Assembly (NCBI GenBank): GCA_903927025.1
Contig: CAIYLG010000043.1
Coordinates: forward strand, 1 to 64,000
From: an uncultured Armatimonadota bacterium
Lineage (GTDB): Bacteria > Armatimonadota > Fimbriimonadia > Fimbriimonadales > Fimbriimonadaceae
Length of the DNA: 64,000 bases
Direction of reading: 5' to 3'
Shown: positions 935 to 42,988 of the stretch, piece by piece
Layout of the letters: each line of letters starts with the position of its first letter
How positions within the stretch are numbered: the stretch's first letter is position 1
Position numbers and translations under genes: made by a program
Notes under the pieces: generated by a model
What the model was told of the DNA's origin: nothing
Databases searched by the model: none
The model's input: only the letters and a program-made list of their open reading frames with translations

Positions 935-1723
935 TCACTTTGAATTTAGTGTTGAACGCGTGAGATCACTTGGGAGAATGCCAAGTTCTCGCTTCATCAT
1001 CTCGGTGAATGCACTCGGATTGCTGTAGCCAAGTTGATAGGCAACTTCTGACGCGCTCGAACCTTCCGCAAGAAGCTCCGCCGCAAGGATACACCTCCTA
1101 CGGCGTACCCACTTTCCAAGAGTCAAGTGGGTCTCCCGCTCAAACATTCGTTCCATCGTCCGTCGGCTAAATCCACTCGAGTCGAGCGCTGCTTCAATCG
1201 AGGAGGATGCGTATGATGCCTCCCTGAGAGTCTCCACAAAACCCAGAGTCGCGGAAGACTTCGGTTCAAGAAGGGAGGCGGAAAGAATCTGAGACCGTTC
1301 CAGTTCATAGCATATGAGTTCAAATAGAGCTCGATGCAAGCTGTCCGTTTCTACGAGGGCGCCGATGAGGACAGTTTTCTGGATGAGCTCCCTCAGGAGA
1401 GGGTTTACCGTTACGGCGACACACCGGTCCTGTGGCAGTTGAGACAGAGGCGGCGCAGTTTTCGGAAGATAGATCATCCGAATTGTTAGCACGGTTCGAT
1501 TCCGAAACTCACACCCAAACCCTGCCGGCACCCACAGTCCAGATTGGGGAGGAATGAGCCAACTGGCTCCGCCCGTAACGATGCTTAGAGGCTGGCCAAA
1601 TGAAACGACAAATTGATGCCATTGTTTGGAGGCAGGCGGCAACAAAGTGGGCTGAGAGAAGGTCAACCCGAAGGTCCGCAAAAGAGTTTGCGACTCTGTC
1701 GTAATTTCCGTATCAATTGACAT
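935..1723 (-). CDS. AraC-family transcriptional regulator
   Basis: A 262-aa protein. The first ~150 residues form a probable cupin-like effector domain (RHS-style LIPPQSGLWVPAGFGCEFRN). The C-terminal ~95 residues are a double helix-turn-helix: SSIEAALDSSGFSRRTMERM gives the first HTH and SASEVAYQLGYSNPSAFTEM gives the second, with the typical GYSNPSAFT recognition-helix pattern. It is divergent from a VOC-fold gene (45 bp apart) and upstream of a pseudopilin in the same direction, so either could be its target. The ligand is unknown. Confidence 0.9.
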   Translation of the reverse strand: MSIDTEITTESQTLLRTFGLTFSQPTLLPPASKQWHQFVVSFGQPLSIVTGGASWLIPPQSGLWVPAGFGCEFRNRTVLTIRMIYLPKTAPPLSQLPQDRCVAVTVNPLLRELIQKTVLIGALVETDSLHRALFELICYELERSQILSASLLEPKSSATLGFVETLREASYASSSIEAALDSSGFSRRTMERMFERETHLTLGKWVRRRRCILAAELLAEGSSASEVAYQLGYSNPSAFTEMMKRELGILPSDLTRSTLNSK

Positions 1724-1755
1724 TATTTCGATAAAGCGTCAAGGGCCAGACGCCT

Positions 1756-1761
1756 TACAAT
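1756..1761 (+). promoter_or_regulatory. -10-like hexamer TACAAT, probable leaderless start
   Basis: TACAAT ends 7 nt before the ATG at 1769, so transcription would start at or next to the start codon. There is no Shine-Dalgarno sequence and no recognisable -35 box. The same spacing recurs at several other genes in this window. Confidence 0.4.
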
Positions 1762-1768
1762 ACCGGAC

Positions 1769-2167
1769 ATGGAGACAACTCAGGTCCACGGACAGCTTGC
1801 CCACTTTTCAATAAATGCCGACGATATTGACCGAGCAGCCAAGTTTTACAAGGCAGTCTTTAACTGGGATTTCGAGCCTTATGGCCCTCCAGGTTTCTTC
1901 ATGATCCGATTTCCAAGCGAAGGCCCCGCGCCAACTCTTGGGTCTCTCCAAGGCCGACGGGAGTTGGTGAAGGGCGTCAAAGCAAATGGCTTTGAATGCA
2001 CGGTTGCAGTGAGAGACATCAACGCCGCGATCCTGGCAGTAGAGCAGAACGGCGGCAAGATTCTCATGGCCAAAACGACCCTTCCCGCAATCGGTCATCT
2101 GATCTTTTTGGAGGATCCAGAAGGGAATATGATCGGCGCGATGCAATACGACAGCGAAGCTGTGTGA
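1769..2167 (+). CDS. VOC-superfamily (glyoxalase/bleomycin-resistance fold) protein
   Basis: A 132-aa single-unit VOC protein. It starts QLAHFSINADDIDRAAKFYK, the beta-alpha-beta opening of glyoxalase/dioxygenase-fold proteins in which the His is often the first metal ligand, and ends LIFLEDPEGNMIGAM, the typical DPxGN close with a Glu/Asp ligand. Close relatives are annotated only as glyoxalase-like; the substrate is unknown. The ATG at 1769 lies just after a TACAAT box. It is divergent from an AraC regulator. Confidence 0.85.
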   Translation: METTQVHGQLAHFSINADDIDRAAKFYKAVFNWDFEPYGPPGFFMIRFPSEGPAPTLGSLQGRRELVKGVKANGFECTVAVRDINAAILAVEQNGGKILMAKTTLPAIGHLIFLEDPEGNMIGAMQYDSEAV

Positions 2168-2268
2168 TTGATCATCGGATTTAGCCTGAAATCCGAGTCA
2201 GCCGATAACAGTCATCCGCTGACTCGGGGCAGGCCGCGTGTGCTCAATGATCGCGAATTGGGCATACT

Positions 2269-3690
2269 ATGCGCGTGACGCTGACAGTCCTCGGTGCCGT
2301 TCTCGGCCTTCTTCAAAACAGTGCTCTGGTTCCGGAATCCCGACCGGATTCCTGGTGGATGAATCGACACAACGCGATGGTGGAAGCAGCCCAACCGGGC
2401 GATTCCAGACTCGTCTTTGTTGGAGACTCGATCACCCATGCCTTTGGCGGTGTGCCCGATACCAATGAGGACTTTCACAACCGTGGGGCCGACACTTGGG
2501 ACTACTTTTTCGGTGAGGATAAGCCGCTAAACCTAGGCATCAGTGGCGACCGAACTCAGCATGTCCTCTGGCGTCTTGATCACAGCGAGCTGGGCAAGAA
2601 TCGCCCGAAGGTCGCGGTCGTGATGATCGGGACCAACAACCTTGCCTCGAACACTCCAGCGGAGATCACTGAAGGCGTCGAGGCCGTCTGCTCGAAGATT
2701 CAAAGCCTGACGCCGTCGACGAAGGTTCTGCTGTTGGGCATTTTTCCGCGTGACAAGGCCAATTCACAGAACCGCAAGTCCATTGCCGCGATCAACAAGG
2801 ACTTGGAGGAGTGGGCCCCCCATCACAGAATCAAATTCCTCGATATCGGATACGCATTCCTAGATTCTGCTGGTGAGATTCCGACGGATGTCATGCCGGA
2901 CCTGCTGCATCCGTTTGCCTTTGGCTACCGAAAGTGGGCCATGGCGATGGAGCCGACGCTTGCTCAGCTGATGCATCGCCGTCCAAAGACAAAGCTCGAT
3001 CCGACAAATTCCGCGGTCGTGCCAGTGACCCAGGATCGCGACTACCGCACTTATGACTGGAAGACGAGGTTTGCGCTGACCAAGCAGTATCCCAAGGATC
3101 ACGCCTGTCGGCTCGCGTTCATCGGCGACTCCATCAACCACTTCTACGGCGGGCCACCGCTAGACCGCGGACTCAAGCAGCCAACCCCGGTTTGGCAGAA
3201 ATACTATGGCAACCGTGACGCCGTCGATCTTGGATTTGGGTGGGACCGAACCGAGAATGTGATATGGAGGCTGGAGCAGGGCGAACTGGATAACATGCCT
3301 CTGGAGGCGGTAAGCCTCATGATCGGCACGAATAACCTGTTCATCAATACACCTGAGCAGATTCGGGACGGTGTTCAGGCCATCATTGACAAGATTCACG
3401 AGCAGAAGCCGCACTGCAAGATCCTTCTTCTCGCCGTTTTTCCGCGTGGTGAGAAGCCTGCAGACGCAGGACGACTGGAAGCCACCAAGCTGAACCGACT
3501 GCTGGAGCCTCTTGGCCACCAGCGCAATGTGACGTTCATGGATATCGGTTCTGTATTTCTTGAGCCAGATGGCACGATCTTGCGATCGACGATGGGAGAC
3601 TTTCTCCATCCAACCGCCGAGGGTTATCGACGCTGGGCGGAGGCGGTCGAGCCTTGGATGAAAGTTAATGTGAAGTCAGCGACACCGTAG
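2269..3690 (+). CDS. Tandem-duplicated SGNH/GDSL hydrolase (PAF-acetylhydrolase-like), secreted
   Basis: A 473-aa protein made of two homologous SGNH esterase domains. Domain 1 (about 25-235) has FVGDSI with Ser54, GDRTQHVLWRL, GTNN at 121-124 and DLLHPFAFGY with Asp211/His214. Domain 2 (about 260-465) has FIGDSI with Ser289, GWDRTENVIWRL, GTNN at 353-356 and DFLHPTAEGY with Asp444/His447. Both domains therefore keep the Ser-Gly-Asn-His set and should be active. The closest known group is the PAF-acetylhydrolase beta/gamma-like family, which deacetylates esters including sugar acetates. A short hydrophobic N-terminus (VTLTVLGAVLGLL) suggests export. The last 26 bp overlap the convergent neighbour. 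Confidence 0.88.
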   Translation: MRVTLTVLGAVLGLLQNSALVPESRPDSWWMNRHNAMVEAAQPGDSRLVFVGDSITHAFGGVPDTNEDFHNRGADTWDYFFGEDKPLNLGISGDRTQHVLWRLDHSELGKNRPKVAVVMIGTNNLASNTPAEITEGVEAVCSKIQSLTPSTKVLLLGIFPRDKANSQNRKSIAAINKDLEEWAPHHRIKFLDIGYAFLDSAGEIPTDVMPDLLHPFAFGYRKWAMAMEPTLAQLMHRRPKTKLDPTNSAVVPVTQDRDYRTYDWKTRFALTKQYPKDHACRLAFIGDSINHFYGGPPLDRGLKQPTPVWQKYYGNRDAVDLGFGWDRTENVIWRLEQGELDNMPLEAVSLMIGTNNLFINTPEQIRDGVQAIIDKIHEQKPHCKILLLAVFPRGEKPADAGRLEATKLNRLLEPLGHQRNVTFMDIGSVFLEPDGTILRSTMGDFLHPTAEGYRRWAEAVEPWMKVNVKSATP

Positions 3691-4882
3691 GCGAAAACAT
3701 CAGCACTTCCATCCGGATGGCATCTCCGTCCCAATTCTTTCGAGGAGGAGTGCGGGTGATTTTGTCCGGTTTCGTAGTGTCCAGCACGTTGTGGAACGAT
3801 TGAAAGCTCTCGAAATTAGGACCGGATTGGTCAAAACCCTCCGCCAAGAAATCGGAATTTGGAAGAGCGAAAGCGTTGACTAGGTTGGAAGGGGACTCAT
3901 CAAGAAGCTGGGCCCCGTTGACCATCAAGATCATGTTGCCGGACGCCGGAGTGGAAACACATTCGAGGCGATCACCATACTCCTTTGAAGGGCGAATCTG
4001 GAATTTCTTTCCTTCGGCCACTGCTTCCCAATGGCGAGGTCCCGCCCTGTGAAAGTGAAGGGTAATTGGATTTCCTGGAAGGGTTACCAAACGTCCCCAC
4101 ACCGAAACGTAGTGCTCCCTGTCCCGAGTAAACGGAGAAGGCACAACTCCCTCGTCGGATAAGCCGTCGGTCTGCATCACTTCTTGACCAGCTGTGAATT
4201 CGGTGACTTTGTCTAGCGTTTCATTGGGGTGGCTTTTAACTCGCTGGTAGTGCAGTCGATAAGTTCGCGTGAATCCGTCAGCGATGGGCTGATCCACCTG
4301 CTCGAGCGAGCACTTTACTTCTGAGCTCGGCGGAGCGATACCGTATTCCACGGGGCCAGGTGGTTTGACGCCAATTCGATCCTTCTCGGCGGCCTGATCT
4401 GCCGAGGGGGTCAGTCCGGAGATTTTCCAACGGCCCACCTCTTCTCCTGATTCTCTCGCAACCAGATAAAAGCTTTCACCCGGGCGGACAGATAGAAAGG
4501 CCGCTCCGCTGAAGTTGCCTTGGTCAGGCTGTCCGAACTCAGTGCAGAAATATTCGCCGTCTGCGGTTTGGGCAAGGATAAGTGGAGCTTTGTGTTCTGG
4601 TTGGGCACCGGAGAAAGTGAAGCCAAGCGTGGCGCGGTGCTCCTTATCCGTTGAACTGACGACACCGTTTTGGATGGGATAGGGGTGCATCGGGATCTCG
4701 TCATCCCCTGCCCGTCGATTCACCAGATCTACCACGCCAACCAATTTCAAATTGATGTCTCGGTGGCCACCATTTCGCAGCGGAACTTCTTCAGCCCTCA
4801 CTCGCGGCAATGAGAGCAACACCGCGAAACAAAGCGCCGGAATCACTCCAAAGACAACAGCAAGTCGCCGATTTAGCCGCAT
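3665..4882 (-). CDS. Exported protein of unknown function, paralogue of the next locus
   Basis: I do not recognise the family. The ATG at 4882 gives 405 aa beginning MRLNRRLAVVFGVIPALCFA, a signal peptide or membrane anchor ending near RVRAEE; the longer ORF start 15 codons upstream would place extra residues before the basic region. Recognisable blocks shared with the neighbouring paralogue are PLRNGGHRD, DLVNRRAG, HRATLGF, APLILAQT and GRWKISGL. Its 3' end overlaps the convergent SGNH gene by 26 bp. No catalytic motif or repeat is apparent. Confidence 0.65.
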   Translation of the reverse strand: MRLNRRLAVVFGVIPALCFAVLLSLPRVRAEEVPLRNGGHRDINLKLVGVVDLVNRRAGDDEIPMHPYPIQNGVVSSTDKEHRATLGFTFSGAQPEHKAPLILAQTADGEYFCTEFGQPDQGNFSGAAFLSVRPGESFYLVARESGEEVGRWKISGLTPSADQAAEKDRIGVKPPGPVEYGIAPPSSEVKCSLEQVDQPIADGFTRTYRLHYQRVKSHPNETLDKVTEFTAGQEVMQTDGLSDEGVVPSPFTRDREHYVSVWGRLVTLPGNPITLHFHRAGPRHWEAVAEGKKFQIRPSKEYGDRLECVSTPASGNMILMVNGAQLLDESPSNLVNAFALPNSDFLAEGFDQSGPNFESFQSFHNVLDTTKPDKITRTPPRKNWDGDAIRMEVLMFSPTVSLTSH

Positions 4883-4987
4883 ATCAAGTGCAGTATACGA
4901 CAGTATCTTTGACGAGCAGAAACTCACAATTTCTTCGTCAAACTGGTGACCTCAACCTGTTCCTTTGATTGAAAGGAGGTGCCAAAT

Positions 4988-6184
4988 TCAGAACGAGAAC
5001 ATGCGGCTCTGGATCTCACCCCACTGTCCTGATTTGTTCAACAGCGGCTTCGAAGTGCCAATGACATCTGGCTTTGATGCGTCGACAACTGCCCGAAAGG
5101 TCTCGGTACCTGTGAACGGGGACCCGGTTTGATCGAACCACCCTGCGTCGAAGCTAGCTTCAGGCAACTCAGCAAACACCGAGCCAGATGCCGCATCAAG
5201 CTGCGAAATGAGAGCACCCTGATAGGTGATCAGTTGGGGGATGAGGCCGTCGACGCACTCGTAGTCAAGCTCGTTCCCGTACTTGGGACTGGGTTTGATG
5301 CGGACTTTGCCCCCTCCAAGTGAAGCTTCCCAAACACGATTCCCTTTGAAGCTGAAATGAACTGGATGAGGCCTTCCCGGCAGGGCGACCAAGTTGCCGA
5401 TCACAGAGAAATAGTGGGCGCGATCGCATGAGGAAGAAGGAACGCAGGTTCCTGATCTGCTGAGCATCGATAAAAAGAATCCACTGAAGAAGGCGTTGGC
5501 AATACTCATCTTCTCCAGTTCCTTGGACGGGTCTTGGGTGCGAAGTTCGTAGTGCAGGCGATAACAGCGAGTAAACCCGTCCGCCACCTTCTTCTCCGCT
5601 AGTTCCAGCCGAAGGGAGACGCCTTGGGGAAGTCCTGTAGGATTGGAAGCAGCAGTCAGCGGCGGCTGGGAGACGTGCTTGTCCTTGGCTGCCGCAGCAT
5701 CGTATGAAGCAGATAGGCCGGAGATGCGCCACCTTCCAACTTCTTCACCCAATTCCCACGCGACCAGATAGAAGCTCTCGACTGGGTGTACAGAAAGGCA
5801 GGATACGCCCTGCATTTTTTCATTCTTAACTGGGCCGCACAGGGTTTGTAGATACTCACCAGCCTCCGTCTGAACCAAAATCAGCGGCGCACGCTTTCCC
5901 GAAGGAACTCCTTTGAACACCTATCCTAGAGTCGCTCGGTGATCCTGATCTTCGAACCATGTCGTCGCAACGACTGCCTGGTCAGGCTCCGTAGAGACGG
6001 CGTTGCCTCCGTCGGCACGATTGACGAGATCGATGATCGAATCGAGCCTCAGAGCAGGGTTGCGATGCCCATGGTTTCGCAGAGGGCTTTCTGCAAAGGT
6101 TAGCCTTGTTCGAGTGAACCGAAAGACTGCGACTAGCAGGAGGATTGTCCCGAAAACTATTCCAAGGGGTAGAAGTCGCCGCAT
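4988..6184 (-). pseudogene. Paralogue of the 3665-4882 gene, interrupted by an in-frame TAG
   Basis: Two segments lie end to end in one frame. 5924-6184 encodes MRRLLPLGIVFGTILLLVAV (signal/anchor), then PLRNHGHRN, DLVNRADG and DHRATLG. The stop TAG is at 5921-5923, and the frame continues at once with a GTG into VFKGVPSGKRAPLILVQ and 300 more residues. In the intact neighbour the same place reads HRATLGFTFSG with a Phe at the stop position, so the TAG falls in the middle of a conserved block. The rest is aligned and intact, which points to a recent nonsense mutation or a sequencing error. Restart at the GTG (5918-5920, with AGGA a few bases upstream) is possible but would leave a product without a signal peptide. 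Confidence 0.7.
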
Positions 6185-23969: not shown

Positions 23970-25820
23970 GTGAACTCTCAAATCGACTCAGAAATTGATA
24001 TAAGCATCGCCACGGCTGAGCGCCTCTATAATCAGGGGCGCCCGGGCGAGGCGCTTGCCATCCTCCATCGATTGCCGCCCGTACACGGTGCGCTAAGAGA
24101 GAGAGTTCTACTGATCGTCGGTGCCTCCTTTGCTCGAATGAAGCGAAGGGAAGAAGCCAGGCGCGCCTTTCAAGAGCTGCTTCAGCTCAATCCCGACTCC
24201 TTTGAAGCGTTGACATGGGTGGCTGTACTCCTTAGGAATTCTCAGGAGATTGATCAGGCAATCGCCTACGCCAAACGGGCGATCCAGCTTCAGCCAGACA
24301 ATGCCCTGGGCCACAGCTCCCTTGGCTCCTGCTTTCTCTTTTTAAGACAGCCCACTGAAGCCATCCGAGCGTTTCAGCTTGCAGTTGAGCTTGCGCCGGA
24401 TGCGGCTGAGCTCGAACACAATTTGGCCCAGGCCTATCTGATGGACCATCAGCACGGTGAGGCCATACAGCGTTTTCGTCGGGCAATCCTGCTGGCACCG
24501 TTTGACTCACACAGCTACCTGACTCTGGCCCGTGTCTATATGCTTTACGGCATGGCGGGCGAAGCCCTTGAGTGTCTCGAATCGGGGCTAATTGCCCTCC
24601 CAGACTGTGCGGAACTTCATTCGTCTGCCGGAGCAGCGTTTGCAATGATCCGCAACGATGAGGCCGCCGAGCGGCATCACAGGCGGGCGGTTGAGCTTTC
24701 CAATGCTGCGGAGCCTGATTACGCCTCCTGGCTTCTCAACCAAGGGAGGTTCGAAGAAGCGGGATCTCACTTTTTGAATCTGATTCAATCCGACCGAGAT
24801 CCTGCTTTTGGATACTACGGACTGATGCAGACCAAGAAGCTTGCGTCAGGAGACGAGCCATTTGTGGCAGATATGCGGTCGGTCCTCAACAGGCGATCCT
24901 TGCGGAAAGCGAGCCGGATGTACCTCAGCTATGCCCTCGGAAGAGCAGAAGAGCAGCTGAATCATGGAGGCGAAGCAATGAGCCACTTTGACGAAGCCAA
25001 TGCGCTTGCCTTCGAAATCAACCATTCCGCGCACCCCGTTGATCCGAACTCTTTTGTTGAGGATCACGCCCGGGTCCAGGCCCTTTTCGAGCAGTTAAGA
25101 ACGGGAAATTCAATGAGCGACAGTGGCGCTTCCCCGATCTTCATCGTCGGCATGATCCGCTCAGGGACCACCTTGCTGGATCAAATTGTTTCCAGCCACC
25201 CTGATGTAACCAGTGCCGGAGAACTTCGATTCTGGATTGAAGAGGCCCTGCGCCTTGCTGCCACACCCGAGCTTGCAACTCCAGAGAAGCTGAATGATCT
25301 GGCAGAGACGTACTTGCGGTACGGACAGCTTTTGGTTGGAAGCGAGGTTCGGTTTACCGATAAGATGCCTCTCAATTTTGCCTATGTGGGCGTGATTCGA
25401 GCCGCGTTTCCCAATGCGAAGTTCTTGCATATTCGCCGTCACCCAGTGGATACGTGCCTTTCTATCTACACCACTTACTTTGGCAAGGGCGCACTGTTCG
25501 CCTATAAGAAGTCTAACATCGTGGCCTACTTCAAGGCGTATTTAGCTTCAATGGAATACTGGCGACAAAACCTGCAGCCGCAGACGATGTTCGAACTGGA
25601 CTATGAAGATCTTGTGACGGATCCGGATACCGTCATCCCGCAGGTGATTGAATTCTGCGGTCTGCCTTGGAGCGAAGCATGCCTCCGCCATCACGAGAAC
25701 AAAAGCGCCATCAATACTCCCAGCCGGTGGCAGGCGAGGCAGCCGATGTATCTGTCGTCGACCGAACGATGGAAGCGATACGAACCGTGGCTGGGGGAGT
25801 TTACAGAGCTCCTAGCCTAG
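23970..25820 (+). CDS. TPR-repeat protein with C-terminal sulfotransferase domain
   Basis: A 616-aa protein starting at GTG. Residues ~10-345 are TPR-like helical repeats (ALGHSSLGSCFLFLRQPTEA, EHNLAQAYLMDHQHGEAI). Residues ~389-600 are a sulfotransferase fold: FIVGMIRSGTTLLDQIVSSH (391-410) is the 5'-phosphosulfate loop for PAPS, and LHIRRHPVDTCLSIY (486-500) is the 3'-phosphate site. TPR-sulfotransferase fusions resemble tyrosylprotein sulfotransferase-like enzymes; they transfer sulfate from PAPS to a protein or glycan. The gene closes the pseudopilin-lipoprotein operon, which makes a secreted product of that operon a possible acceptor. Confidence 0.88.
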   Translation: MNSQIDSEIDISIATAERLYNQGRPGEALAILHRLPPVHGALRERVLLIVGASFARMKRREEARRAFQELLQLNPDSFEALTWVAVLLRNSQEIDQAIAYAKRAIQLQPDNALGHSSLGSCFLFLRQPTEAIRAFQLAVELAPDAAELEHNLAQAYLMDHQHGEAIQRFRRAILLAPFDSHSYLTLARVYMLYGMAGEALECLESGLIALPDCAELHSSAGAAFAMIRNDEAAERHHRRAVELSNAAEPDYASWLLNQGRFEEAGSHFLNLIQSDRDPAFGYYGLMQTKKLASGDEPFVADMRSVLNRRSLRKASRMYLSYALGRAEEQLNHGGEAMSHFDEANALAFEINHSAHPVDPNSFVEDHARVQALFEQLRTGNSMSDSGASPIFIVGMIRSGTTLLDQIVSSHPDVTSAGELRFWIEEALRLAATPELATPEKLNDLAETYLRYGQLLVGSEVRFTDKMPLNFAYVGVIRAAFPNAKFLHIRRHPVDTCLSIYTTYFGKGALFAYKKSNIVAYFKAYLASMEYWRQNLQPQTMFELDYEDLVTDPDTVIPQVIEFCGLPWSEACLRHHENKSAINTPSRWQARQPMYLSSTERWKRYEPWLGEFTELLA

Positions 25821-36101: not shown

Positions 36102-37913
36102 GTGGATTTGGACACGTCGAAGCAGCAGATTTGGATTCGAATGTTGGGTGAATTCAGGGTTTGCCTCCCTGAAGCAGACACTCTTCTGCATAAATTTAGG
36201 TCGCGAACCGCCGAAGCGCTTGTTGCTGCACTTGCGCTTCGCATAGGAAGAACCATGAGTCGAACGGAGCTCATGGATATGTTGTGGCCCGAAAGCGACG
36301 GAGATCGGCAAGCTCAAAACCTCCGCAGAGCCGTGGCCGATGCCAGGATGGCGCTGGCGGATGAGGGCCGCGCGCCCACCATTCTGCTATCACAAGGCGA
36401 CCGCTTCTGGCTGAATACGGAACGGGTCGATACTGACGTTTCTCAATTCAAACTCGCGACTGACGCAGGTCTAGCGGGCAATGATTCGGAATCCAATCTT
36501 CGATCGGCGGTGGAACTGTATGAGGGCCCTCTTTTGGGCGGGCTCCAGGAGGGAGGACTTCAGGTCTATCGAATGGAGCTGGAGGAGCGGTTCGGTCAAG
36601 CTGTTCAGCGGCTGATTGGGCTGTTGCTTGAGAGCGAAAGGTTTGGCGAAGCGCTTTTGATTGGCAGAAGAGCCATTGTCGCGGCACCGCTTCGGGAGGA
36701 TGTCCACTTGGCGCTGTCCTGTGCGTATGCATCGGCTGGGCTCCGGGCGGAGGCCATCCGGCAATTTGAGGAGCTAGAGACCTTAATGCAGGATCAGTGG
36801 GGCGAGTCGCCTTCGCAGAGGAGTATTTTGGCGTTCGAGCAGTTTTTTGCCCAATCCCAAGAAATTGCTGCTGATCCAGGATTGGCAGAGCGCGCCGTAG
36901 TGATCGAACCTTCGGGAGGTGCCGTTCCCGCAAACTCAACGTTTTATATTGAGCGCTCATGCGACGAACTAGTTAGGCAGGCGCTTCATCGTCAAGAGCC
37001 GACGGTGCTTGTTCAAGGGGCGCGTCAGAGTGGCAAGACATCGCTCTTGTTGAGGTCCTTGAATCGGTTCTCCAAAGCCGAAGCCCGGGTTGCGATGACC
37101 GATCTTCAGGTGCTCAATCGCTCTCAGGTCTCCAACGCAGAAGCTTTTTGCCGTGCCCTTGCCTACGGCTTTTCGCAGCAGAGCGGACTGAATCTGGACT
37201 TGCCGCGACTTTGGAACGAGTGGCTCGGGCCGAACATGAATCTGCATTCGGTGGTCGAAGAGGTTCTCCGTCAATCCGATCAACCTGTGATCTGGGCGAT
37301 TGATGAAGCGGATCGGTTGTTTGGTACAGACTTCGGCGACGACTTTTTTGGACTCATTCGGAGTTGGCACAACTTGAGGGCAAGCCAGACCGCAGGCGAA
37401 TTCTCGCGGCTCACGATCATGATTTCTTACGCGACGGAGGCTCATCTCTTTATTCAGGATATCAATCAGTCCCCCTTCAATGTTGGCGTACGGGTCATGC
37501 TCAATGATTTTGGAGAAGAGGAGATTGCCGAGCTGTCGCGCAGATACGGCCTCAGCGCTTCGAGGGCTGAGGTACTGCGGATCCTAGAACTCACCGGTGG
37601 GCAACCCTTTCTTGCTCGAAAGGCACTCGACTCGATTGTCCACGGCGGTCTCCGCGTTGAGGATCTCAGTGACCAGGCTACTTTAGAGGATGGACCCTTT
37701 GCGGAGCATTTGCGGCGCTTGCTTTTTGTTGCATCGCGTGATCCTCTCATGAAAAATGAGGTTGTTCACTTTCTAAACGGAGAGCCATTTGAAGACTCCA
37801 AAACGATCTTCCGACTGATTGCCGGAGGTGTATTGGTCCGCAAAGTCGGAGGGAAGCTCGATTTTAGAGTGCCTGCCTACCGAGAATTCCTCTCGAAATA
37901 CCTCAGAGCCTAG
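36102..37913 (+). CDS. SARP/BTAD-type regulator fused to AAA-like ATPase domain
   Basis: A 603-aa protein starting at GTG. Residues ~10-105 are a winged-helix DNA-binding domain (WIRMLGEFRV, LALRIGRTMSRTELMDMLWP), ~112-250 a helical bacterial transcriptional activation domain, and ~278-600 an AAA-like ATPase related to PF14516, with Walker A GARQSGKTS (306-314), Walker B VIWAIDEAD (396-404) and SPFNVGVRVMLNDF. This is a large signal-integrating transcription factor. It ends 11 bp inside a convergent gene that carries the same ATPase type, and it may sense a shared signal. Confidence 0.85.
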   Translation: MDLDTSKQQIWIRMLGEFRVCLPEADTLLHKFRSRTAEALVAALALRIGRTMSRTELMDMLWPESDGDRQAQNLRRAVADARMALADEGRAPTILLSQGDRFWLNTERVDTDVSQFKLATDAGLAGNDSESNLRSAVELYEGPLLGGLQEGGLQVYRMELEERFGQAVQRLIGLLLESERFGEALLIGRRAIVAAPLREDVHLALSCAYASAGLRAEAIRQFEELETLMQDQWGESPSQRSILAFEQFFAQSQEIAADPGLAERAVVIEPSGGAVPANSTFYIERSCDELVRQALHRQEPTVLVQGARQSGKTSLLLRSLNRFSKAEARVAMTDLQVLNRSQVSNAEAFCRALAYGFSQQSGLNLDLPRLWNEWLGPNMNLHSVVEEVLRQSDQPVIWAIDEADRLFGTDFGDDFFGLIRSWHNLRASQTAGEFSRLTIMISYATEAHLFIQDINQSPFNVGVRVMLNDFGEEEIAELSRRYGLSASRAEVLRILELTGGQPFLARKALDSIVHGGLRVEDLSDQATLEDGPFAEHLRRLLFVASRDPLMKNEVVHFLNGEPFEDSKTIFRLIAGGVLVRKVGGKLDFRVPAYREFLSKYLRA

Positions 37914-40900
37914 ACGGGGTCATTGGGCCAGACTGCCAGATGCGAAGCGTGTGATCTTCTCCGCACGAAAGGATCGAATTTCCGTCTGGAGTAAAAGTAA
38001 CTCCCAGCACAAAGCCAGTGTTGCCCCGGAGTTTCAAGAGTTCAAACCCGTTCTCGGGTGCAAACACTCGAATGAGGTGATCGGCGCATCCGGTCACAAT
38101 CCTCCGCGAGTCCGGTGACCATTCGGCTGAGGACACCCACGAGTCGTGCTGCAGAATCGATACCGTTTTGCCTGTTGCGGTGTCCCAAACCCTGGCGGTT
38201 CCATCAAATGAATTTGTCAGAATCCATTTTTCGTTTGGCGAGAATCGAGCCTGCCATATTCGAGACGTGTGGCCGGATAGGACTTTGACCTCGCCCAATG
38301 AATCTAGGTTCAAGAGACTTGCAGTACCGTCTCGTGACGCGATGGAGAGGACATGGCCGCTAGGTGAGAACTCGACCCCTGTAATGTAGGCAGAGTGGAG
38401 CTGGCGCTTATAGATCACCTTATCTGACCTGGTGTCCACCAGAAAAACGGAGCCATCTTGTCCTCCCAAAGCTAGCATGTTGCCGTCCTTTGAGAGTGCC
38501 GCTCTAGAGAACGATCCCTTCACACTGCTGAGTGTCCGCAGATTGCCTTTCCAGCTATCCATGAGCAGAACGCCACTGTCACGAAGGGTCAGAGCTATGT
38601 TTCCACTTGCAGAGATAGCAACGGAGTATGGGCGGCCATGGGACCAAGCAATCTTTCTGAGGATTCGCCCATCAAATGGGTTGGCAAAGAGAATATTCCC
38701 ATCTGAACAGACCATGAGCAGAATCTTTCCGTCCGGTGAGAAGACGGTCGCCGGAGCCTCCGGAAATTTTCCGATCGGGATGTGTGCAATCGGAGTTCCG
38801 GTCTTGAGGTCGATCATCCCAACCATTCCGTTTTGAACATAACCGATGCATCGACTGCCATCTGGAGAAACCTTGATTGAGCTGATTTCTGCTGCGTCGG
38901 TGGTCAGTACCCTCGCTTCATGTTCCCGCGTTACTGGCCAGGAAACGAGGGAGCCATCCATCGTGACATAGAAAATCGATCGCTCATCGGGGCTTAAACT
39001 GATGGAGGCGCCAGGCTTATCCGAAGCGTAGACTGCCAGTTCACGACCTTCTTTTACGTTCCACACGCGCACAGTGTGATCGTGCGCACAGGTCACTAAT
39101 CGGGTTTCGTCTGCAAACCAGATTGCTTGCGAAGGAGGAGCAGTGTGACCTTTAAGTTCCGAAACCAAAGAATTGTCATCTACGCGCCTAACTTGAATCT
39201 TTGAATCCGCAAGCTTCACAACCAGCATGTATTTGGCTTTTGGACTGGGCCAAAGGTTGTAGGGAATCCATAACTTTTTGACAAAGTCGTATGTCATTTG
39301 ACTGTCTAAACCACGAATTGATAGGAATCGACCGTCGCCGGAATAGCTGACGTCGTAGGGCCGAGTAGGACTCTGGAGGACCTTGGTGGTTCCGGTTTCG
39401 ACATCGCGGAGTTCAATTTGATTGGTGGTGCCAACAATAACGGCAACTTGCTTGGCATCCGTTCGAATCGCATACAAATTCTTTGGAGATGTTGCCAATA
39501 GTTGGGTGATGGTCCGATATCGAGCATCCAGTGACGCACGGTCTTTTGTGGCCCAGAGCCACGAGACGCCATAGGAAGCAGCGTGGCTGTCTTGAAATTT
39601 GCCAATAAACCGACTTCCTAGAAAGAGGCTCCCTGAGCGCACGGTTGCCAAAGAACCGCGCTCAAGCCATGCATATTGGATTGGATTCCGGAGTCCGCTC
39701 ATGGGACTTGGAGGAATGATCTCGGTTGGGTCAGGGAGACCGTATTTGAGGTAGTTCCACTCCCAACCGCGAAGCGAGGCATCTGTTTGACCTCGGAGGA
39801 GTGCCAATGCCTTCAGCTGATTCCCTTCCCGAAGGGTTTCTGAGGCCAGCGCGATAGACGTTTGGTAGGCAATCACCGACCGATCCGCGCTCTGCCTTCT
39901 GCTCTCAGCAAGGGCACGATCCCGTGAAGAGGCGAGGAGAATGAGCCAGACAACGAAACAGGCCAGCACCGCAAAGCAGGCGGCAGAAATCCAAACTGCC
40001 CGAAGCGCTCCCCTAAAGGAAGCAACTCGCTGACGCTGGGCTTCTGCGTCCGGCAGACTGTTCCGTCGCCATCTTTCATCGAACAAGGTTCGATAGAGTC
40101 GGTTGCGGAATCTGAGGCTACCGGCTTCTTCGATTGCAATCCCTGACAGGAGCATTGCCAGCACCGCAGGTTCATCGTGCCGAGCAGGGACGAGGGAATT
40201 AGTGAGCATGAGGGCGTGAAGCTCAAGGATTTGGCTTCGAGATTCGTCCGCAGATTGGTTTGGAAGCCTCGTTTGGAGCAGCCGGCGCTCTGCGTCTGCA
40301 ATGTTGGGCTCCCTTTGCCTTGATTCGGCGCTGAACAGAGTCGTCCGGACGTACGCATCAACGTCTGCCGGATGCCGAATTTCAGCACGTGCAGCCACGC
40401 CCCCTGCCAGCACTTGGGTGAGGTAAGGGTGACCGCTCACCCAGTAGAAAATTCTGTCAACAAGCTTCTTTCCATTTCTTCCCGATCGTGCAATCTCAAC
40501 CCCATAGGGTTCGATTTCCTCTCGCGTGAAGTCGGTGACTTCAACGCGTCTGCCCACATTGAAAGGGGTGACGTCTTGGTTGTTGATAAGCTGGCTGGGA
40601 GATGCGACGCCAACCAGGCAAAAGGTGACCCTTTCGAAATCAGTCGATTCAGACCGACGGTTGTAGAGCTGCCTGATTCCAGCAAAGAATTCATCGACGG
40701 AGAAGGGAAGCGCCTGGCAGAAGTCGACTTCATCGACGAAGATCACCAACGGTTCCGATGTGCCTTGGATAAGAACCGCTTCGATGGCAGCGAAGAATCG
40801 AAATGCGGGGCCGACCACTAGATTGCTTTTCCAGAACTCGAACAGCTCTTCGGTTTTGCCCAGTTCCTGGCCGATAGAATGAAGAAGTCCCGCATACCAC

Positions 40901-41151
40901 TGTTCTGGCAGGAGGTTATTTCCCAGTCGTTGAAAGTCGATTCGAGCGGTTCTGACGCCCCTAACCTTCAGGTCAGCGATCGCGCGCACGATGAGGGATG
41001 ACTTTCCCTTTTGACGAGAATCTAGGACATAGACCAGCTCCGACTTGAGGAGAGCCTTCAGGATCTCCTCATCCGCCTTTCGACGAACGTAGCTTGCCGA
41101 GTTGGGTGGAAGGGTTCCTCCGGGAGTGAAGAATGAATCCCTTGCAAACAC
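37903..41151 (-). CDS. AAA-like ATPase, membrane segment and WD40 propeller
   Basis: The GTG at 41151 gives 1082 aa and starts exactly before the family block FFTPGGTLPPNSASYVRRKA; the long ORF upstream of it is unlikely to be coding. A TACTAT hexamer lies 6 nt before the GTG. Walker A SRQKGKSS is at 45-52, Walker B LVIFVDEVD at 135-143, and TPFNVGRRVEVTDF at 195-208 (PF14516-type). A single membrane span lies at 384-407 and WD40 repeats fill ~450-1080 (VRVWNVKEGREL, ARVWDTATGKTV, LRIWQSGPM). The propeller would be on the far side of the membrane from the ATPase, or the span anchors it. Similar proteins are signalling ATPases of unknown output. Confidence 0.85.
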   Translation of the reverse strand: MFARDSFFTPGGTLPPNSASYVRRKADEEILKALLKSELVYVLDSRQKGKSSLIVRAIADLKVRGVRTARIDFQRLGNNLLPEQWYAGLLHSIGQELGKTEELFEFWKSNLVVGPAFRFFAAIEAVLIQGTSEPLVIFVDEVDFCQALPFSVDEFFAGIRQLYNRRSESTDFERVTFCLVGVASPSQLINNQDVTPFNVGRRVEVTDFTREEIEPYGVEIARSGRNGKKLVDRIFYWVSGHPYLTQVLAGGVAARAEIRHPADVDAYVRTTLFSAESRQREPNIADAERRLLQTRLPNQSADESRSQILELHALMLTNSLVPARHDEPAVLAMLLSGIAIEEAGSLRFRNRLYRTLFDERWRRNSLPDAEAQRQRVASFRGALRAVWISAACFAVLACFVVWLILLASSRDRALAESRRQSADRSVIAYQTSIALASETLREGNQLKALALLRGQTDASLRGWEWNYLKYGLPDPTEIIPPSPMSGLRNPIQYAWLERGSLATVRSGSLFLGSRFIGKFQDSHAASYGVSWLWATKDRASLDARYRTITQLLATSPKNLYAIRTDAKQVAVIVGTTNQIELRDVETGTTKVLQSPTRPYDVSYSGDGRFLSIRGLDSQMTYDFVKKLWIPYNLWPSPKAKYMLVVKLADSKIQVRRVDDNSLVSELKGHTAPPSQAIWFADETRLVTCAHDHTVRVWNVKEGRELAVYASDKPGASISLSPDERSIFYVTMDGSLVSWPVTREHEARVLTTDAAEISSIKVSPDGSRCIGYVQNGMVGMIDLKTGTPIAHIPIGKFPEAPATVFSPDGKILLMVCSDGNILFANPFDGRILRKIAWSHGRPYSVAISASGNIALTLRDSGVLLMDSWKGNLRTLSSVKGSFSRAALSKDGNMLALGGQDGSVFLVDTRSDKVIYKRQLHSAYITGVEFSPSGHVLSIASRDGTASLLNLDSLGEVKVLSGHTSRIWQARFSPNEKWILTNSFDGTARVWDTATGKTVSILQHDSWVSSAEWSPDSRRIVTGCADHLIRVFAPENGFELLKLRGNTGFVLGVTFTPDGNSILSCGEDHTLRIWQSGPMTPSRL

Positions 41152-41172
41152 ATATGTATAGTAGCGCCACAG

Positions 41173-41236
41173 GTGTGACGAGATCGTGCCCGTCCACCAT
41201 AGGCGCAATTCCCCACGACTCACAATCTCGTCACAC
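41173..41236. promoter_or_regulatory. 12-bp inverted repeat in a divergent promoter region
   Basis: GTGTGACGAGAT (41173-41184) and ATCTCGTCACAC (41225-41236) are exact reverse complements 40 nt apart, inside the 148-bp gap between the AAA-WD40 gene and the divergent secreted-protein gene. This spacing suits two half-sites for a looping or dimer-of-dimers regulator, or a weak RNA stem. Confidence 0.5.
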
Positions 41237-41260
41237 TTAGCTTCGTAAAGTCTCCTCACA

Positions 41261-41286
41261 AGCTTTTGCACGTTATTGCAAAAGCT
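41261..41286 (+). promoter_or_regulatory. Hairpin directly upstream of a ribosome binding site
   Basis: AGCTTTTGCA (41261-41270) pairs with TGCAAAAGCT (41277-41286) around a 6-nt loop CGTTAT. AGGAG follows 4 nt later and the ATG is at 41300. It could protect the 5' end of the message or modulate access to the ribosome site. Confidence 0.5.
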
Positions 41287-41299
41287 CAAAGGAGAAAGA

Positions 41300-42988
41300 A
41301 TGAACTTAAAAGTAGCTGCCTTCAGCAGGCTTAGCCTGCCGTGGCAAAAAGGTGACCGCAAATGGCCCCATGTATCCGTGTTCAAAGGGCAGTTGACCCG
41401 CGGACTCGTGTTGTCGCTCGCCGCTTGCGTTGCCTCAGTGCAGATTGCCAGCGCGCAGCCTGCTCTCACCGGTAGTGGAAACCTAGGTTCGGTGGCATCC
41501 AGTCTCGGGCCGCCCACGTTCTATGGCGCAGCGCCTGGGACCACCATGTCATTCGCACCCGGGCGACATTCTGATTGGGCGGGAACGTTTACTCGTTCTG
41601 GGCCCGGCACTTCGAGCCCAAATATCGGCACGTCCACGTACATCTTTACGGGGCTCGCCACCGGCTGCTTGCCGCCAGGGACCTATGTTACGTTCAGTGA
41701 CGTGGACCAATCGGGTGAGACGTTTAATATCAAGGCTTATGCAAGCAACGGTAGTCAAATCACGCTGCCCTGGCTCGACGGCCCCGTTGTGAAATGGGGA
41801 AATCCAAGCTCCTATCCACTACCGGACTACACTTATTCGGGAGGCGTTTACACGTTCGATGGCGGCATTGTACAGAACATCACCGCGAACGTTGCCTACT
41901 GCCTTCGGACGAATGTGCAGATCTACAAGATCATCGTGGTGAAGGCCACCAACAACTATGGGATGGGTTTTGCCGCTCCTGCCCAAGACATCGAACATCC
42001 ACCGGTCTGTTGCGCAGGTAGGAACTTCGTTGGCAACGGGAGCTTTGATGCTGGATTCACCGCGTTTACCAGCCAGTTCGCATGGAACCCTGGACCCTTT
42101 CCTCCTACACCGTTTATGCCCGGCCAGATCACGATCGGCAACGGCGCGATCGCCAGTCAGATCAATTCAACCTGGTCGGTTTGGGACCAAGCGACTCAGA
42201 ATCCCTACTTCGGTCACTTCTTGATCGCCAATCTGTCTGGCCGACCGAACCAGATGGTTTGGAGTCAGACGTTTGACTTGCCCAACAAAGCGGTCTGTTC
42301 GCTCTGTGCCAGAGTTAAGGCGTTGGGCAACTCCCCCGTCTCCGTGACTCTTCAAGTCAACGGCGTCAACTTGCCTCCCATCGTGGTGACTCCTAACGGT
42401 TTACCCGGCGTCTGGCAAGATCTGTCCGCATCGATCGGACCCGTCGGCGGCGCGGTGACTATCAAGATCTTCGCTACGGGTCACGGTGGACTTGCTATCG
42501 ACAACATTGCGGTGATCGAAACGACGACTCCCTCGCCGGCAGCCTACGCCAGCATTGGCGTGTCTACATCGGTTCCCAGTGGAGGCACCTTCACCGTTAC
42601 CGCAACCGCTCCCGCACTTCCTCCCGCCTACGGCTACTACTGGTCCGTCACCGACGTCACCACGAACCATCAGGCTGCGAACCCGCCTGCCTGGTGGCTT
42701 GCGACTTCGACTGGCCAAACCCTGAACTTCCCGGGCTTCCACAGCAACTCCAACACCCTATCTGGATCATCTGCGGGGGTGTTCAACGTGGGTGACCACT
42801 ACATCATCAGCTATGGCGTGTGGAGCAAGTGCACGCTTTGGAGGGCGAGCCGATGGGATATCACGTTCACCCAGGATCTAAAGAGCAGGAACAGCAAGCC
42901 GGTTATCAGGCAGCTCCCCGATTCGGAGGGCATCGAGATACCGATCGTTCGTGCGGTCCAAGGTTCCGGAAAGGGAACTGATAAGTGA
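41300..42988 (+). CDS. Large secreted protein with jelly-roll-like module, unknown function
   Basis: The ATG at 41300, 6 nt after AGGAGA, gives 562 aa. The signal is unusual: about 30 residues precede the hydrophobic core GLVLSLAACVASVQIASAQP. The body has low-complexity Gly/Ser/Pro stretches, Cys pairs (PPVCCAGRNF, CSLCARVK) and a GNGSFDAGFTAF ... GGLAIDNIAVIE pattern, like carbohydrate-binding jelly-roll domains in secreted proteins. No catalytic domain is recognisable. It is divergent from the AAA-WD40 gene. Confidence 0.7.
   Translation: MNLKVAAFSRLSLPWQKGDRKWPHVSVFKGQLTRGLVLSLAACVASVQIASAQPALTGSGNLGSVASSLGPPTFYGAAPGTTMSFAPGRHSDWAGTFTRSGPGTSSPNIGTSTYIFTGLATGCLPPGTYVTFSDVDQSGETFNIKAYASNGSQITLPWLDGPVVKWGNPSSYPLPDYTYSGGVYTFDGGIVQNITANVAYCLRTNVQIYKIIVVKATNNYGMGFAAPAQDIEHPPVCCAGRNFVGNGSFDAGFTAFTSQFAWNPGPFPPTPFMPGQITIGNGAIASQINSTWSVWDQATQNPYFGHFLIANLSGRPNQMVWSQTFDLPNKAVCSLCARVKALGNSPVSVTLQVNGVNLPPIVVTPNGLPGVWQDLSASIGPVGGAVTIKIFATGHGGLAIDNIAVIETTTPSPAAYASIGVSTSVPSGGTFTVTATAPALPPAYGYYWSVTDVTTNHQAANPPAWWLATSTGQTLNFPGFHSNSNTLSGSSAGVFNVGDHYIISYGVWSKCTLWRASRWDITFTQDLKSRNSKPVIRQLPDSEGIEIPIVRAVQGSGKGTDK

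Follow-up and report, generated by a model that had tools for sequence, protein, structure and literature searches.

A transcription factor and a membrane WD40 protein with matched AAA_35 ATPases as a predicted membrane-to-DNA signalling pair in Fimbriimonadaceae

Two convergent genes, here called A and B, in a 64,000-nucleotide stretch of DNA (the window) from a soil-type bacterium encode proteins that in our judgement probably form a split membrane-to-DNA signalling system. The architecture of the two proteins, their co-conservation, the swapping of output modules among their relatives and the promoter sites associated with them are established by computation. Contact between A and B, ATP-dependent switching, activation, membrane topology and the ligand are inferred, and no expression, binding or interaction data stand behind the signalling role. 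The features concerned are the following.

36102..37913, + strand: gene A, a SARP (OmpR-type HTH plus BTAD) fused to an AAA_35 STAND-like ATPase; 603 aa, no membrane span
36213..36818, + strand: SARP module of A; Trans_reg_C-like HTH at aa 38-94 (below the Pfam cut-off), BTAD at aa 130-239
36918..37895, + strand: AAA_35 ATPase of A; full model 4-330, Walker A GARQSGKTS, SPFNVG block
37903..37913, no strand: tail-to-tail overlap of A and B; 11 bp, with both stops inside
37903..41151, - strand: gene B, AAA_35, transmembrane helix and WD40 propeller; GTG start at 41151
37936..38745, - strand: WD40 propeller core of B, predicted outside the cytoplasm (WD40 match; positive-inside charge pattern)
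39934..39990, - strand: single predicted membrane span of B, ISAACFAVLACFVVWLILL; hydropathy 2.78
40411..41124, - strand: AAA_35 ATPase of B; model 2-238, P-loop DSRQKGKSS, Walker B VIFVDEVD, TPFNVG block
41158..41163, - strand: -10 hexamer of the B promoter, TACTAT; spaced 11 nt from the preceding TCAC and 6 nt from the GTG that follows; mRNA predicted leaderless
41175..41189, - strand: GCAC-N7-TCAC, a SARP-type box for B; repeat of 11 bp whose first copy has one mismatch
41220..41234, + strand: SARP-type box TCAC-N7-TCAC facing the secreted gene; 11-bp direct repeat
41246..41251, + strand: -10-like hexamer TAAAGT, 11 nt after the second TCAC
41300..42988, + strand: divergent secreted protein, predicted target of A; 562 aa, signal peptide, no Pfam match, ATG at 41300

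The first-pass annotation had proposed that both proteins carry the same type of ATPase, and this held: AAA_35 (Pfam PF14516, curated cut-off 27) was matched above the cut-off in A (208.6 bits) and in B (94.4 bits), with the motifs it quoted present in both. The match in B spans only positions 2-238 of 331, and the P-loop of B (DSRQKGKSS) lacks the first glycine. The two domains are 31% identical over 245 aa (E 9e-29), and profile-profile comparison gave E 4e-42; judged by their sequences, A and B have an ATPase type in common and the resemblance is not due to chance. They are the sole AAA_35 domains in the 5.25-Mb genome and lie side by side. The DNA-binding SARP/BTAD module claimed for A is supported by a BTAD match over the cut-off (54.1 bits) and a Trans_reg_C match just under it (23.9 bits, cut-off 26.2), and A meets the membership feature of SARPs, a BTAD domain after an OmpR-type winged HTH. 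The membrane span and WD40 propeller ascribed to B (one span was predicted) and the 11-bp overlap of the gene 3' ends were likewise recovered. Elsewhere in the window, a 616-aa ORF (23970-25820, + strand) is weakly similar to the SARP module of A (20.5 bits).

The ORF of B is open upstream to 41517 (37903-41517, - strand). On sequence grounds the GTG at 41151 is the likely start of B, because it lies five codons ahead of the AAA domain and because, among the 12 loci where a SARP promoter was found on the B side, most have their start at this same position, 6-8 nt after the -10.

A direct search for sequence relatives in the PDB returned none that were useful. AlphaFold modelling of A reached a pLDDT of 41 from the single sequence and of 86 from an 18-sequence alignment, with a pTM of 0.56 at which the orientation of the domains is unreliable. 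In the latter model the SARP part superposes over 240 residues on the SARP domain of AfsR (Z 17.9) and on EmbR (Z 18.5), and residues 263-603 align with the archaeal STAND-like protein 2qen (Z 22.4) and with CED-4 and NLRs (Z 17-18). The modelled A also has the STAND feature of a NOD plus a winged-helix fold.

The expectation that the two genes would be conserved together was strongly met, the pair recurring in the family, elsewhere in the Armatimonadota and in other phyla. The search took in 121 genomes, counting that of the window; 28 of them have AAA_35, and almost all of the 28 possess both the A and the B type, mostly adjacent; the genomes with the system include G007, and in G059 only A was seen, its partner gene running toward the contig end. 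In two genomes, the SARP-type G004 and the TIR-type G050, both partners are kept unlinked, separated by a long distance or located on different contigs. Among named genomes, a search also recovered the pair from Acidobacteriota, Verrucomicrobiota, Gammaproteobacteria, Planctomycetota and Chloroflexota, for the most part in tandem; in a number of these loci, B was not found within the DNA fetched. The two proteins are cleanly separable by sequence, with G.RQ.GKTS and SPFNVG in most A, and [DT].RQ.GKSS and [ST]PFN[VI]G in B. A further expectation, that the two ATPases would be closer to each other than to other paralogues, fails if taken literally: the ATPase of A is 39-62% identical to that of most other A proteins, 28-32% to the two most divergent A proteins and 31% to B. 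Such closeness was the wrong test, since A and B represent two old subfamilies that accompany each other, as indicated by the correlation between the distance matrices of 73 A/B pairs (mirror-tree r 0.84; permutations at most 0.27). Co-evolution of A and B beyond co-inheritance was not demonstrated, since a mirror-tree correlation can arise from co-inheritance alone. A same-genome swap test was weak (64%), so that co-inheritance is shown but tight co-evolution is not, and the loci are not phylogenetically independent.

A and B are convergent in 21 loci, in 17 of which the 3' ends overlap by 4-65 bp; gaps take the place of the overlap in L038, L040, L043 and L047. No conserved flanking genes besides the pair were found, other than among closely related loci. 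In L040 (1095-7965 and 9012-10793) two tandem B genes face one SARP-type A, with boxes upstream of the outer B, and in L068 (G112:C3, 5145-13486) one B lies between two A proteins, one divergent and one tandem.

The N-terminus of A is exchangeable. Across 65 relatives we identified TIR (42), kinase (17), BTAD (11), cyclase (7), trypsin (3) and caspase (1) N-termini. By comparison, 24 of 37 B C-termini were WD40, and 65 of 73 B proteins have a transmembrane segment after the ATPase, in the same place as in the window, as against any transmembrane segment in 3 of 73 A proteins. The mean charge beside the span of B is +3.6 on the AAA side and +1.1 on the propeller side. B, the inferred membrane sensor, mostly retains the order AAA_35, membrane span and propeller, while the N-terminus of A varies between TIR, kinase, cyclase-like, trypsin, caspase and SARP modules. 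In four convergent loci (L032, L036, L234 and L235) A begins with a diverged class-III-cyclase-like module, which was recognised by a profile of our own (97-118 bits) and has no Pfam match. The gene divergent from B in these cyclase-type pairs is of the cNMP-binding/Crp type (L032 8051-8689, L036 8699-9337, L234 5862-6707, L235 5847-6692), an assignment confirmed by Pfam for L032 and made by sequence resemblance for the other three; given this gene beside the cyclase-type pairs, the module and the receptor seem to fit the type of output. In some loci (L037/L074, L045/L076 and L041) a SARP module and a TIR domain both precede AAA_35 in one A, the SARP part of L041 lying partly in a neighbouring frame. 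L229 was considered as an A/B fusion and rejected, as its SARP-AAA_35 portion is followed by a second STAND-like module and not by B. It encodes a single 1194-aa protein (1673-5257, + strand) with SARP-AAA_35, the second STAND-like module and repeats, and two TCAC-N7-TCAC boxes lie directly after its stop.

No consistent periodicity emerged from an initial repeat scan that used generic shuffles; the motif TCAC-N7-TCAC came to light when enriched k-mers were sought upstream of B in SARP loci. This motif was present in 14 of 18 SARP-convergent B upstream regions (L037 and L042 are among those without it) and at the unlinked B of G004, and in none of 33 TIR-tandem or 4 other-convergent B upstream regions, one of these 4 being from the window's genus. 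Nor was it found upstream of A itself in any of 25 SARP-type A genes. When repeat spacings of 5 to 24 were scanned, only 11 stood out, with otherwise one or two hits at 14 and 15. A -10 hexamer NANNNT lies exactly 11 nt after the second TCAC in 17 of 21 sites (p about 1e-17), and TCAC-N10/11-TANNNT occurs on the B side in 12 of 18 SARP-convergent loci compared with 0 of 32 TIR-tandem loci. As a start codon follows the B-side -10 by 6-8 nt in 11 of these 12, the B mRNA is predicted to be leaderless. In the window the B promoter reads GCAC-N7-TCAC-N11-TACTAT-N6-GTG, from 41189 down to 41149, and the promoter of the secreted gene TCAC-N7-TCAC-N11-TAAAGT (41220-41251). The secreted gene also has, in the stretch from its predicted -10 to its ATG, a perfect 10-bp inverted repeat with a 6-nt loop (41261-41286, AGCTTTTGCA/TGCAAAAGCT), possibly a leader hairpin. 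The published rule for SARP targets is that of 11-bp direct repeats whose 3' repeat, a heptamer, lies 8 bp from the -10 (PMC10936776), and the same heptamer logic appears in PMC5930380. TCAC-N7-TCAC-N11-NANNNT satisfies the rule of 11-bp repeats at a fixed -10 distance in SARP-type loci, with no binding data. New here is that SARP-type loci carry 11-bp direct repeats and a -10 at the published SARP distance at the promoters of B and of the divergent gene; such boxes are absent from TIR- and cyclase-type loci. The first-pass annotation had suggested looking for a SARP repeat upstream of 41300 and had regarded the divergent secreted gene as a possible output. The repeat was found at 41220..41234, and the output idea gained direct sequence support, with SARP-type promoters facing both the 41300 gene and B.

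Genome-wide, the composite site is enriched only in genomes with a SARP-type A, with 74 matches against 12 for the reversed control in 16 such genomes and 102 against 133 in 105 other genomes (difference p 2e-12). Genes behind strong-consensus sites have a signal peptide, by a crude home-made rule, in 28 of 34 cases compared with 85 of 200 in the background (p 1e-5), and are mostly secreted proteins or lipoproteins. In the window genome, two more good sites were located, one ahead of a secreted protein of 876 aa (C33) and the other ahead of a pseudopilin-like protein (C51); in G004 a matching site precedes a very similar protein. The divergent gene beside B is secreted in 11 of 21 convergent loci (one judged by eye) and in 1 of 17 other B loci. 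A homologous partner common to the loci was ruled out: the divergent secreted proteins mostly bear no relation to one another, ranging from subtilase and M43 protease to PD40 propeller, PEP-CTERM and proteins without a match; the one in the window resembles its L033 counterpart only at E 0.002.

Not all of these sites need belong to A. In G068, which lacks any AAA_35, the same SARP-type boxes precede four secreted or lipoprotein genes around a different large SARP with a frame of about 1000 aa (G068:C13, L225-L227, L237), and other SARPs may share the box. With several BTAD proteins per genome (8 BTAD matches in the window genome), one could suppose that a different SARP binds the boxes in each genome and that the real targets of A lie elsewhere. 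We doubt this strongly: BTAD proteins are found almost everywhere, whereas box enrichment tracks the presence of SARP-AAA_35, and in G045, where one of only two BTAD matches is A, the B promoter accounts for both of the genome's two composite sites. It is also conceivable, if unlikely, that A and B make no contact, B being merely one target gene of A and the ATPases independent paralogues kept together by the control of A over the B promoter. That promoter does bear a SARP box, and the within-genome test of co-evolution was weak. However, the same pairing holds where A has a TIR, kinase or cyclase, with no SARP and no box, so promoter control cannot explain it, and the unlinked partners persist in the TIR genome G050 too.

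The sister architectures with TIR, caspase, trypsin and kinase are typical of the conflict systems of PMC7159879 and PMC8195603, and the ATPase of A has an NLR-like fold. The pair might thus be an immunity or regulated-death system like other STAND pairs, its SARP version triggering a transcriptional defence programme, a reading that we consider improbable without setting it aside. PADLOC returned only weak ATPase or propeller matches, the targets predicted here are secreted proteins of a structural or enzyme-like kind rather than killers, and the flanks of the pair have no conserved defence neighbours. Least credible to us is that the tail-to-tail overlap is the functional core, antisense transcripts balancing A and B. 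The 3' overlap is frequent among convergent pairs, but four of them have gaps, TIR pairs are commonly arranged in tandem and some partners are unlinked.

For the split signalling system that we favour, the following mechanism is proposed. B would span the membrane, exposing the WD40 propeller on the outer side and keeping the AAA_35 ATPase on the inner side; it would sense an extracytoplasmic state or ligand and would switch A between silent and active forms through AAA_35-to-AAA_35 contact. STAND ATPases undergo silent/active switching within one chain. Active A would bind through its SARP module, as a side-by-side dimer, to the 11-bp direct repeats in the -35 region and recruit RNA polymerase to the divergent promoters. 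Activation of the B promoter, with its predicted leaderless mRNA, would close a feedback loop, and the secreted gene at 41300 would be activated together with a few other secreted-protein genes.

AfsR, a large SARP of Streptomyces in the STAND class, resembles A in having a SARP module gated by a STAND/NOD ATPase, and its sites resemble those of A loci in their 11-bp direct repeats at -35 and fixed -10 spacing (PMC10936776). It differs in that its TPR sensor is on the same chain, whereas the predicted sensor for A is another protein, membrane-bound and equipped with an ATPase itself; A and B also differ from AfsR in that their ATPase is AAA_35. MalT, CED-4/Apaf-1 and NLRs share the ATPase core fold of A but are single-chain receptors, whereas A and B divide sensor and output between two AAA_35 proteins. 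The single-chain criterion for STAND receptors, sensor repeats and effector on one chain, is not met, A having no repeats after its ATPase and B no effector; with sensor and effector on separate chains, the pair works like a STAND receptor without being a member in the single-chain sense. As in two-component and anti-sigma systems, a membrane sensor is co-conserved with a DNA-binding partner controlling the sensor gene and surface or secreted genes, but there is no kinase/receiver or sigma factor, and the link is predicted to run through the shared ATPase modules.

Among described two-gene STAND pairs, the closest precedent is the nSTAND2 two-gene operon (PMC8195603), which likewise has a related STAND NTPase in both genes and variable effector modules in one, and for which a hetero-multimer was proposed. 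It is described there as a different NTPase family with GT4 or HEPN effectors, and the section of that paper on GT4 domains, unlike the present pair, describes no membrane WD40 sensor or transcription factor. Pfam scans of A and B gave, besides AAA_35, only weak matches to other nSTAND models; the nSTAND2 sequences of PMC8195603 were outside the comparison. In the literature searched, from which most subscription literature was excluded, no paper named PF14516 and no SARP-WD40 pairing was found.

STAND ATPases underlie NLR immunity and apoptosis and are normally one-chain receptors. The present system assigns sensor and output to separate proteins whose ATPases are sisters, and in one lineage a transcription factor occupies the position that death- or immunity-type effectors hold in relatives. 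We lean towards regarding the pair as a chassis, a membrane receptor and an intracellular partner with matched AAA_35 STAND ATPases, in which the partner can carry any of several output devices (TIR, kinase, caspase, SARP, or a nucleotide cyclase accompanied by a neighbouring Crp-type regulator) and which in Fimbriimonadaceae became a transmembrane gene switch for secreted proteins. Toxic activity is otherwise the end point of the pathway, and the gene switch would allow it to be read out as transcription; as the predicted promoters are precise, ATPase-to-ATPase signalling could be measured with a reporter.
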